From contig NZ_JAKJHW010000002.1 in assembly GCF_021646685.1 (NCBI RefSeq), positions 124,001 to 188,000 of the forward strand: 64,000 nt of DNA, in the 5' to 3' direction. Below, in pieces: positions 45,464 to 49,074 of the stretch. Source of the DNA: Pseudalkalibacillus salsuginis. Lineage in GTDB: Bacteria > Bacillota > Bacilli > Bacillales > Fictibacillaceae. A model generated the notes under the pieces. That model was not told the origin of the DNA, did no database searches, and was given only the letters and a program-made list of their open reading frames with translations. A program made the translations under genes and the position numbers. The stretch's first letter is position 1. Every line of letters begins with the position of its first letter.

Positions 45464-45593
45464 CCCTCCATTTTATATCATTATATGCGAACATAAGTTC
45501 TATATGCAACTGTTTCTGAATGAGAAAGTTTTCCAGAAACTGATGGTGTTGGACAGCGGTTCTCGTAAAACTAAGGACCAAAAAACTCTCGCT

Positions 45594-46085
45594 GAGTACC
45601 TTACACCCTGTTTTTCGCTTCGTAAGGTACTCAAAAACCCTTGCCGAGTACCTTACACCCTGTTTTTTGCTTCATAAGGTACTCAGAAATCCTCGTTGAG
45701 TACCTTACACCCTGTTTTTCGCTTCGTAAGGTACTCAAAAACCCTCGCTGAGTACCTTACACCCTGTTTTTCGCTTCATAAGGTACTCAAAACCTTCGCT
45801 GAGTACCTTACACCCTGTTTTTCGCTTCGTAAGGTACTCAAAAACCTTCGCTGAGTACCTTACACCCTGTTTTTGGCTTCGTAAGGTACTCAGAAACACT
45901 TGCTGAGTACCTTACACCCTGTTTTTCACTTCGTAAGGTACTCAAAAACCTTCGCTGAGTACCTTACACCCTGTTTTTCGCTTCATAAGGTACTCAGAAA
46001 CTCTCGCTGAGTACCTTACACCCTGTTTTCCGCTTCATAGGTACTCAAAAACCCTCGCTGAGTACCTCAAAATCAGTTTTCATCT
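45594..46085. repeat. Nine-unit 52-bp tandem array of hairpins
   Basis: Nine units of 51-52 bases (45594-46059), plus a degenerate tenth (to about 46085) and a partial tail before the first. Each unit starts GAGTACCTTA and contains TAAGGTACTC, giving a 10-11-base-pair stem with an 17-19-base loop that includes CACCCTGTTTTT. Differences are mostly single bases, in the loop and in the spacer CTCAAAAACCCTCGCT. It fills the gap between the ABC-F gene's terminator and the two small genes. Confidence 0.97.
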
Positions 46086-46197: not shown

Positions 46198-47823
46198 TCA
46201 ACCCAACTGTGTTCTTTTTTCTTTTGCAGCTTCATAATTGCCGATATAGCTTTTCAACTGCTGATCTTCCAGCCAGTACGTCCGATCCATCAGTTTATTC
46301 AAAAAGTACCTGTCATGCGATACGACAAGGATCGTCCCTTTGAAACCTTCCAGTGCCTCTTCCAGGGCTTCCCGTGATTCTATATCAAGATGGTTTGTCG
46401 GCTCATCCAGCAATAACAGGTTATAGTTCTCAGACATCATTTGTGCCAATCGTAACCGTGTCCGTTCACCACCACTTAAATTATCCACCTTTTGAAATAC
46501 GTCTTTTCCGAAGAACAAAAACCGGCTCAGGCGATATCGGGCCTCTCCTTCCTCGACCTTAGCGATATCCCGATATGCATCCAGCACAGTCCAGTTTTCG
46601 TAGCCTGTCAGTCCTTTTTGAGAAAGATAACCGACCTTCACCGATGCACCGATCCGGACATCACCTCCATCAGCAGGAACTTCACCTAATATCAAACGGA
46701 GAAGGGTCGATTTGCCGACCCCATTCTTACCAATGATAGCGGCTCTTTCCTGATACTGTACCAGCATATTCAAATTGGTAAACAAAATTCGGTCTTCCAT
46801 CTTTTTCGTTACCTTTTCGAATATGATTACATCCTTGCCGCTGCGTTTAGCAGTGGTGAATTCCAGGGATGCTGTCTTCCGTTTGAGCTTCGGACGTTCG
46901 ATCTTGTTCATGCGTTCCAATGCCCGTTCCATGTTGCGGGCGCGTTTATGCATATTCGGATTATCAGCACGGATCGCCCAATCCCGCATCCGTTTGATCG
47001 CTTCCTTCATCTTTTGGATTTTCTTCTGTTGATCCTGATAAGTCTGGAATTCAAGCAACAGGCGTTTTTCTTTTTCTTTTATGAAGGTCGAATAATTCCC
47101 TTTGTATTCTTCAATGCCTCCTGAATCGATTTCCATCGTCTTTGTCACGACTGCATCAAGGAAATAACGGTCATGCGAGATGATGACAACCGCACCATCA
47201 TAGTTCTTGATATACTCCTCCAACCAGTCGAGTGCCTCCATATCGAGATGGTTCGTCGGTTCATCAAGTAATAGCAAATTTGGTTCTTCAAGCAGGATTG
47301 CAGCTAGTCCGACTTTCGTTTGTTCACCTCCACTCAAAGATTGGAACGGATGATCACTTAGATGTTCGAGTCCGAGGCCATGCAATACCCCTTTGATTTT
47401 CGATTCAACGGCATAACCATTCACTTCTTCCAAGCGATCCTGAAGCTTACTGAATTTCTTGAAATGCTTGTCAAGGTCAGCTTGCTCTTCAGGATCTGCC
47501 ATTTTTTCAGTGACCTGTTTCAATTGTTGTTCGATTTCATAAACCTCGTGGAAGGATTGCTTCAATACCTCTGCCACCATCAAGTTCCCCGCAATATCTG
47601 GTATTTGGTCAAGCATACCGGTCGTGAGTTCTTTCTTGTACGAAATATTGCCTTTATCTACATGCTCTATTCCAGCTATGCATTTCATCAATGTTGATTT
47701 TCCTGCACCATTAGGACCAATCAGTGCAATACGTTCATTCTCATGAATTTGTAAAGATATATTTTCAAAAATCCAAGTACCTGCATACATTTTAGCTATA
47801 TGATTTACTGATGTTACGATCAT
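46198..47823 (-). CDS. ABC-F family ATPase (translation factor or ribosome protection)
   Basis: A 541-residue protein with two ABC domains and no membrane segment. Domain 1: GPNGAGKST, SLSGGEQTK, LLLLDEPTNHLDMEALDWLE; domain 2: GKNGVGKST, NLSGGERTR, LLLLDEPTNHLDIESREALE. Between them lies a charged helical linker of about 80 residues that in this family contacts P-site tRNA. Members rescue stalled ribosomes or confer resistance to antibiotics acting at the peptidyl-transferase centre. ATG 47823 (MIVTSVN) has AAGGAG upstream. An upstream leader ORF and intrinsic terminator suggest attenuation control of the antibiotic-responsive type. Substrate range cannot be read from sequence. Confidence 0.88.
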   Translation of the reverse strand: MIVTSVNHIAKMYAGTWIFENISLQIHENERIALIGPNGAGKSTLMKCIAGIEHVDKGNISYKKELTTGMLDQIPDIAGNLMVAEVLKQSFHEVYEIEQQLKQVTEKMADPEEQADLDKHFKKFSKLQDRLEEVNGYAVESKIKGVLHGLGLEHLSDHPFQSLSGGEQTKVGLAAILLEEPNLLLLDEPTNHLDMEALDWLEEYIKNYDGAVVIISHDRYFLDAVVTKTMEIDSGGIEEYKGNYSTFIKEKEKRLLLEFQTYQDQQKKIQKMKEAIKRMRDWAIRADNPNMHKRARNMERALERMNKIERPKLKRKTASLEFTTAKRSGKDVIIFEKVTKKMEDRILFTNLNMLVQYQERAAIIGKNGVGKSTLLRLILGEVPADGGDVRIGASVKVGYLSQKGLTGYENWTVLDAYRDIAKVEEGEARYRLSRFLFFGKDVFQKVDNLSGGERTRLRLAQMMSENYNLLLLDEPTNHLDIESREALEEALEGFKGTILVVSHDRYFLNKLMDRTYWLEDQQLKSYIGNYEAAKEKRTQLG

Positions 47824-47930
47824 GAAATTAGTCTCCTTTACGATGAAAGTCAAATTATCATCTAATACTCAACTTTATATTTCATTAGCCTGATATGACC
47901 TTACGATTCATTTTCAAGATTTTTAGACAA

Positions 47931-47964
47931 CAAAAAACCATGAGCAAGCTGACCTGCCCATGGT
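47931..47964 (-). terminator. Leader terminator ahead of the ABC-F gene
   Basis: On the minus strand ACCATG and GCA pair with TGC and CATGGT (one G-T between) around an eight-base loop, followed immediately by T6. It lies 38 bases after the leader ORF stop and 108 bases before the ABC-F start, so it must be passed for the gene to be expressed. Confidence 0.8.
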
Positions 47965-48002
47965 ATCCGTTCATTATAAGGATGAAAGGGGTAAGGTTTT
48001 GC

Positions 48003-48128
48003 TTACGTTTTGATCGATTCCGCATCTGGAAAAATGGACATACTTCTCCCGTCAAACGCAAATTTATGCGTAATAGAACGGACTTCGACTGTCAACCAAT
48101 CCAAAATGCGCAACAATCCTGTAAGCAT
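48003..48128 (-). CDS. 41-residue leader peptide upstream of the ABC-F gene
   Basis: A small frame from ATG 48128 to TAA 48003, with an AGGGGG...AAGGA ribosome site. It reads MLTGLLRILDWLTVEVRSIT and continues to SMSIFPDAESIKT. The ribosome site can pair with CCTTACCCC located just after its own stop (9 pairs with a two-base bulge). Together with the terminator downstream this resembles translation-coupled attenuation. It could instead encode a functional small protein; I do not recognise a family. Confidence 0.6.
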   Translation of the reverse strand: MLTGLLRILDWLTVEVRSITHKFAFDGRSMSIFPDAESIKT

Positions 48129-48163
48129 TCCTTACACCCCCTAATTTCAATAGTAATAATTTT

Positions 48164-48192
48164 ATATTACCGTAAAAATTCCAGTTCAGCAA
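48164..48192 (-). promoter_or_regulatory. Candidate promoter for the ABC-F leader transcript
   Basis: On the minus strand TTGCTG (48192-48187), a 17-base spacer, and TAATAT (48169-48164). Weak match but well placed, about 36 bases before the leader ORF. Confidence 0.4.
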
Positions 48193-48198
48193 GCCTGT

Positions 48199-48990
48199 TC
48201 ATGCCGTTTTGTGCCACATCGTCCAGCGCCCGATATCTTTGAAGCCTAAACGCTTGTAAATTGAGCCTGCCGCCGGATTATCGTAAAACAGACACAAAGT
48301 CTTCCCCTCTTTCAAGACGTCTTCACAAAGTGCACTCAAACATCTGGAAGCAAGACCTTTATTACGGAAGCCCGTGTCAGTACAGACACCTACAACCATC
48401 GCTGACATCGAGTTTTCTGCAGTCGTGGAAACACTTGTAATTGCAGTATCTCCTTCTTTAATGAAATATGTACGTCCTGTTTTCGATTGAATCGAATGGA
48501 GCATACTTTCCCGTGAAGCGATAGAACTTGAGAACTCTTCAATTCTTTCACGCAATGAAAATATCGCTTCCACATCTTCCTCTCCAGCAATACGTATATC
48601 CTCCCGTTCAAGTTCAAGTCCTAATACGTCCCCATTGGTCATTTCCGCAAAATACATCCCTTTTTTCTTATTCGAGGAGATATAAGGTGCGAATTGATCA
48701 ATTATGTCCTCTTTTCCTGATAAGATTTGGAAGTTTTCGTCCGAAGTAATGATGTTCGCGAATCCCTCCACGTCGAATGGGCCTTTAGCGTATGGGATGA
48801 AATTACCTTTATAGCGAAGTAGGATGGCAATCATATGGCCTTTATCATCCCATTCACCCCAAACTTGCTGAAAATCTGCGTCATAACCGAAGTTTTCGAT
48901 ATCTCCGATGATGAACAGGTTCAAAGCACGTTCTTCACTTAAATATCCCATGACTTGTTCGTGATCATTTGCTGTTAGTTTTCTAATCAA
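48199..48990 (-). CDS. GNAT-family N-acetyltransferase
   Basis: A 263-residue protein with an N-terminal half of degenerate GNAT type (residues 1-130) and a C-terminal GNAT domain: ITSVSTTAENSMSAMVVGVCTDTGFRNKGLASRCLSALC (beta4, motif A) and LFYDNPAAGSIYKRLGFKDIGRW. Acetyl-CoA-dependent transfer to an unknown substrate. The start is TTG at 48990 with GGGGAGGGG six bases upstream; the longer open frame has no ribosome site. It follows the HEAT-repeat gene after 84 bases. Confidence 0.82.
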   Translation of the reverse strand: MIRKLTANDHEQVMGYLSEERALNLFIIGDIENFGYDADFQQVWGEWDDKGHMIAILLRYKGNFIPYAKGPFDVEGFANIITSDENFQILSGKEDIIDQFAPYISSNKKKGMYFAEMTNGDVLGLELEREDIRIAGEEDVEAIFSLRERIEEFSSSIASRESMLHSIQSKTGRTYFIKEGDTAITSVSTTAENSMSAMVVGVCTDTGFRNKGLASRCLSALCEDVLKEGKTLCLFYDNPAAGSIYKRLGFKDIGRWTMWHKTA

Positions 48991-49074
48991 GTTGATCCCC
49001 TCCCCGAAACTGTAATAAGACCATTTTACAGATTCATAGAATGGAATCAACTACTTTTTGGAAATTCACTAAAA

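Follow-up and report, generated by a model that had tools for sequence, protein, structure and literature searches.

Each step of ribosome-mediated transcription attenuation has a precedent in the vmlR (PMC9226507) and tlrB (PMC6851288) leaders of Bacillus subtilis. The vmlR leader combines an upstream ORF (uORF), a terminator and an ABC-F gene with an anti-antiterminator and a pause hairpin. In the tlrB (yxjB) leader, a leader peptide is accompanied by an SD-sequestering hairpin, and a NusG-dependent pause gives time for leader translation. The uORFs of Listeria rli53-lmo0919, cplR, VmlR2 and LsaA are also ribosome-stalling attenuators of ABC-F genes (PMC8079631, PMC10201436). Listeria RliI (Rfam RF01487), which is located before lmo2760, is catalogued as an sRNA; a review passage citing Term-seq data describes it as a putative conditional terminator of lmo2760, and an ORF is absent from the account given there (PMC8079631). 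Among related cases, RliI alone has experimental support, through this passage.

The leader described here shares the uORF, terminator and ABC-F gene with vmlR and the leader peptide and SD-sequestering hairpin with tlrB, and it contains putative counterparts of the anti-antiterminator and pause elements of these systems. The vmlR uORF encodes only MIN, and VmlR belongs to another ABC-F type (263 bits against the window ABC-F), whereas the present ORF has 41 codons, includes a conserved core and itself forms the structure. The tlrB leader encodes a 9-aa peptide with an RYR motif, targets a methyltransferase and pauses polymerase after the ORF, in contrast to the block inside the ORF described below. 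The other uORFs have three or four residues and no peptide similarity to the present leader. RliI shares with it an RAxF peptide (MFLLNARTSIAKFLYIVRAIFSG...), a leader RNA, a terminator and a downstream ABC-F that is 47% identical, and differs in having no T run after its GGCGAAGTCTGCC block. The peptide family of this leader class is NCBIfam RAxF-45 (NF041642); its hmmscan entry gives no function, and a text search of a literature library returned no paper naming the family.

Locus layout and conservation of the leader

On the minus strand of the window (the whole 64,000-nucleotide stretch of DNA analysed, from an assembly of 19 contigs), a GNAT-like gene, a 41-codon ORF, a terminator hairpin and an ABC-F ATPase gene follow each other in this order. 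The features are as follows.

48199..48993, minus strand: GNAT-like acetyltransferase gene, upstream neighbour of the leader (synteny)
47984..48143, minus strand: structured leader RNA, matched over its full length by covariance model R1
48129..48142, minus strand: leader ribosome-binding site AGGGGGTGTAAGGA, 5´ strand of the closing helix P1 (fold)
48003..48128, minus strand: leader ORF, MLTGLLRILDWLTVEVRSITHKFAFDGRSMSIFPDAESIKT, RAxF-45-like (NF041642; orthologs by peptide search)
48066..48080, minus strand: codons R-S-I-T-H, corresponding to the R-A-x-F-H core, where stalling is likely (codon statistics)
48030..48050, minus strand: in-ORF block GGGAGAAGTATGTCCATTTTT, candidate RNA polymerase pause element (pattern survey; third-position entropy)
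47985..48006, minus strand: stop codon and post-stop strand (GTAAGCA...CCTTACCCCTTT), 3´ strand of P1 (fold; covariation)
47932..47964, minus strand: intrinsic terminator hairpin with T6, between leader and ABC-F
46198..47823, minus strand: ABC-F ATPase gene (541 aa; two ABC domains and linker), the gene presumably controlled

The ORF, hairpin and ABC-F start reported in the initial annotation are all present at exactly the distances given there. The ORF runs from an ATG at 48128 to a TAA at 48005-48003. The hairpin (47964-47937; 12 pairs, ACCATGGGCAGG-TCAG-CTTGCTCATGGT) begins 38 nt past this stop and runs into the T6. The ABC-F gene has its own AAAGGAG site and starts with an ATG at 47823, 108 nt past the T run. 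No promoter was found near the leader by a consensus scan of the minus strand.

The ABC-F product meets the ribosomal protection-like ABC-F model NF000355 (496.3 bits against a cut-off of 380) and stays below the cut-offs of the proven resistance families Vga, Lsa, Sal, Msr and CplR (270-334 against 680-780 bits). Judged from its sequence, it probably helps ribosomes cope with antibiotics. Its closest named relatives are in Alkalihalobacillus sp. YIM B00296 (96%) and Bacillus sp. Marseille-Q3570 (86%). PADLOC matches of this protein resemble generic ATPase matches and were discarded. The GNAT-like acetyltransferase is syntenic in the genus loci L003-L008, gives no tblastn match in those g2 and g4 loci that retain leader and ABC-F, and is probably outside the switch. 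Downstream of the ABC-F gene, a 52-bp unit is repeated in tandem (window positions 45581-46067; 9.4 copies, 90% match).

The initial annotation did not recognise the leader sequence. The leader is not without precedent, being RAxF-45-like and similar to RliI in architecture. It falls just under the NF041642 cut-off (26.1 bits against 27; 24.9 in the genome search), whereas the leader of a sister genome with 83% peptide identity passes at 29.7 bits and the ortholog in G008 scores 56.3. Peptide search located orthologs in 13 other genomes of the bacterial family. Of 298 order-level relatives, 141, spread over 61 of 112 genera, carry RAxF-45; it was detected in none of 14 control genomes, and a plasmid search with an RAxF peptide gave no match. 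Parsing of 144 matches left 137 leaders, since 7 had no ORF; start codons were picked by ribosome-site score. An ABC-F gene, 44-100% identical to that of the window in its product, comes next downstream in 133/137 (the loci are phylogenetically related, and the counts are not independent). The peptides in these 133 loci measure 34-56 aa, and the best ribosome sites match at 5-6 of 6 bases. G004, the sole species of the genus without an ABC-F ortholog, also lacks a detected leader match. The candidate attenuator of the initial annotation is supported by this pattern, as orthologous loci throughout the family and in most of the order keep leader, terminator and ABC-F gene together.

Four leaders do not precede an ABC-F gene. 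Two lie at contig ends, L142 precedes an AAC(3)-like acetyltransferase gene, and L165 precedes an MFS pump gene in a genome without a close ABC-F ortholog. Targets such as the latter two are expected if the leader class is an antibiotic-sensing module.

Curation of RAxF-45 as a protein family by NCBI and the strong ribosome sites at nearly all loci would also fit a functional small protein acting in trans, with the terminator as the end of its transcript and a separate promoter for the ABC-F gene. Such a protein is quite improbable given that all but four ORFs lie directly before an ABC-F gene, the exceptions being two contig ends and two resistance-type genes. Moreover, the C-terminal parts vary, the conserved DNA is read in another frame in L162, L167 and the g4 genus, and the entire ORF is RNA structure. 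A transcript that functions mainly as a trans-acting small RNA was first proposed for RliI, and here would make ABC-F regulation incidental; Rfam types RliI as an sRNA gene, and its binding to lmo1035-1036 mRNA has been reported (PMC8079631). The constant position before ABC-F, the translated-ORF features with a ribosome site, and the Term-seq passage that reads RliI as a conditional terminator (PMC8079631) render this highly improbable for the present class.

Structure of the leader RNA and its terminator

The self-pairing of the ribosome site, which the initial annotation had proposed, is real and more extensive than described there: AGGGGG.GTAAGG..TGCTTAC pairs with GTAAGCA...CCTTACCCCTTT. 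This helix, P1, reaches beyond the post-stop region, takes in the stop and start codons and closes the ORF into one structured RNA. Folding of 48148-47963 yields -64.9 kcal/mol (z -6.4; none of 200 shuffles equal), and the mean z over the 133 loci is -5.0 with 40 shuffles per locus. The SD is paired to the post-stop region in 126/133 loci.

Covariation is consistent with this structure. Among 14 same-family sequences, it reaches 0.228 compared with 0.163 after shuffling and at most 0.102 after sliding, and the SD:post-stop helix (7-11/167-171 of family alignment A1) carries double-sided changes in four of its five pairs. For 32 leaders from other families, base-pair probabilities computed per sequence and mapped onto the alignment gave a three-way junction as consensus. 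P1 joins the ribosome site and start to the stop and post-stop strand, P2 covers codons ~6-21, and P3 covers codons ~23-38 with the block at its tip. Double-changed cells number 116 in these leaders, compared with 51 ± 6 in shuffled controls. MAFFT with RNAalifold recovered only a 3-bp block helix from 34 distant leaders. The single-sequence fold of the window leader is one long hairpin with P1 unchanged; alignment to the model suggests that it may also adopt the junction form.

Covariance model R1 was built from these 32 leaders, leaving out the bacterial family of the window. The window leader scores 31.9 bits with it (E=1e-5 in 64 kb), and the runner-up in the window scores 11.8. The model also recovers nearly all tested loci of the family, some weakly. 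Its matches to RliI (27 bits) and Staphylococcus L177 (E=0.3 only) are weak. An Rfam scan of the window gave nothing at gathering and no match to rliI RF01487 (threshold 45 bits), and rliI scores on the leaders of relatives are 22-31 bits. R1 has two matches in the whole source genome, the window leader and one before a YfmM-like ABC-F gene.

This second leader RNA of the same type (G000:C18:214406-214527; L214 ~707-828) carries a block, GGGAGAAGTATGCCCATTTTT, that is one base off the window block. Its short ORF ends in TRSVVLLIVVA, and the downstream YfmM-like ABC-F scores 391 bits with NF000355.

All 133 loci contain an intrinsic terminator, a hairpin that ends in a U run, in the leader/ABC-F interval, compared with 23 of 266 dinucleotide shuffles, and its energy averages -19.6 kcal/mol. 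The 3´ strand of P1 shows weakly enriched pairing with the terminator over all loci (mean z -0.34; 26 below -1 and 4 above +1) and is not enriched in the window (z -0.17). The block was considered as the 5´ strand of a general antiterminator and rejected, with block:terminator pairing at chance (mean z 0.03); at L045, the two pair over ~10 bp. The pairing scans thus gave no clear antiterminator, which is compatible with control acting mainly on translation or transcript stability, such that the structure gates leader translation and the terminator is constitutively read through. Translation and transcription attenuation are indeed combined in vmlR and cplR. Because a terminator of this strength with a U run is kept at every locus and RliI is read as a conditional terminator in the reviewed Term-seq account (PMC8079631), we consider predominantly translational or stability control unlikely.

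Two constraints within the ORF and a model of the proposed switch

Codon statistics of 71 non-redundant leaders separate two regions of the ORF. For most of the codons from -14 to -9 ahead of the block (consensus LYICRA), variation is greater at the third position than at the second, and the alanine uses all four of its codons. This third-position variation argues for amino-acid selection on the stretch. The conservation of this core suggests that drug-dependent stalling involves the nascent chain. In the block (GGG NNN MGT NTG YCC N TTTTT), third positions are fixed at GGG, MGT and NTG, with zero entropy at block codons 0, 2 and 3, and are nearly fixed at YCC. First positions vary (CGT/AGT, NTG, CCC/TCC). 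L162, L167 and the g4 genus read the same or a near-identical block in a different frame. The fixed third positions and the frame differences identify the block as a nucleic-acid signal. We report as a new finding that, on this comparative evidence, GGGnnnMGTnTGyCCnTTTTT is constrained as nucleic acid and not as peptide. The NGxRMPFF part of RAxF-45 is largely the translation of the block, and peptide conservation inside it is a by-product of DNA conservation.

A translatable leader ORF with its ribosome site lies upstream of the target gene, an intrinsic terminator lies between them, and the leader ribosome site is sequestered in a structure that a ribosome translating the ORF has to unfold. 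We conclude, from sequence and comparative data, that the window leader is most probably a ribosome-mediated transcription attenuator of an RAxF-45/RliI-like class that is found in much of the order. This conclusion draws on the conserved leader/ABC-F linkage, the terminator present at all loci and the sequestered SD, on covariation beyond shuffles and slides and the success of R1 on the held-out family, and on the codon pattern that separates the LYICRA peptide constraint from the nucleic-acid constraint of the block.

In the proposed mechanism, RNA polymerase would pause at the in-ORF block before the 3´ strand of P1 exists, letting a ribosome load on the leader. During normal translation, the ribosome would finish, P1 would close, presumably acting as an anti-antiterminator, and the terminator would form, leaving ABC-F off. 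A ribosome-targeting drug would stall the ribosome, probably around the RAxFH-like codons, and hold P1 open. Competition of the freed 3´ strand of P1 for the 5´ arm of the terminator, or some other effect of the stalled ribosome on the polymerase, could then sustain transcription; in either case ABC-F would be made.

Leader, terminator and ABC-F are arranged almost identically at 133 loci of Bacillus-type bacteria, which points to an antibiotic-sensing switch that is widespread and has hardly been studied. If this holds, RAxF-45, a named yet unexplained small-protein family, would acquire a function, Listeria RliI would be reinterpreted as a translated leader, and a single attenuator class would, in dozens of genera, govern ABC-F genes and in some cases pumps or an acetyltransferase. 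With the shared block inside the ORF, simple reporters would suffice for a direct test of how polymerase pausing is coupled to ribosome stalling.

The block outside RAxF-45 leaders

The 21-letter block pattern occurs in 89 of 198 genomes, compared with one site for the reversed-pattern control. Pausing that depends on NusG has been reported in the ribD, vmlR and tlrB leaders (PMC12288461, PMC9226507, PMC6851288), and on this analogy we infer that the block is an RNA polymerase pause element. The window block, which has ATTTTT and ends ATTTTTCC, does not contain the strict NusG motif TTNTTT, and the blocks of many relatives have CCTTTTTT. More tentatively, and with somewhat more doubt than belief, the block could be a pause signal that is portable and of higher specificity than TTNTTT; members of the order would place it in antibiotic-sensing leaders, even within coding sequence, and after riboswitches, where it would hold polymerase for a ribosome or ligand, with RAxF-45 leaders as a new widespread class of drug-sensing arrest peptides.

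Several other leader types carry the block. Seven sub-threshold RAxF-45 HMM matches (model 25-37) were rejected as RAxF ORFs and are nevertheless block-bearing; L170-L175 are ermD-type leaders. Leaders of this type (MTHSMRLRFPTLNQ and variants; L170-L175, L184, L188, L194, L212, L213, L220, L221 and L232) contain an MRLR or RIRFR motif and bear the block after the ORF. They precede genes for RlmA-II-type methyltransferases, Mph phosphotransferases, Mef-like pumps and ABC-F proteins. In a second leader class, exemplified by MFEMGMGCMKRFIAFMSTIFGILHFNGTSVSFFRQIP, the block is in frame and located before MFS pump genes (L203-L205, L217, L219, L229 and L199), and a Cfr leader (MITVFRILYG...) similar to this class also has a block. 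YfmM-like ABC-F genes with 12-aa leaders and a VmlR2-like ABC-F gene with an MKY uORF are likewise preceded by it.

Some riboswitch-linked or intergenic matches may be ordinary terminators. The block lies ~16 to 140 nt past FMN, purine and glycine riboswitch aptamers at L211, L227, L228, L187 and L195, where the downstream genes are ribD, purE-like and gcvT-like.
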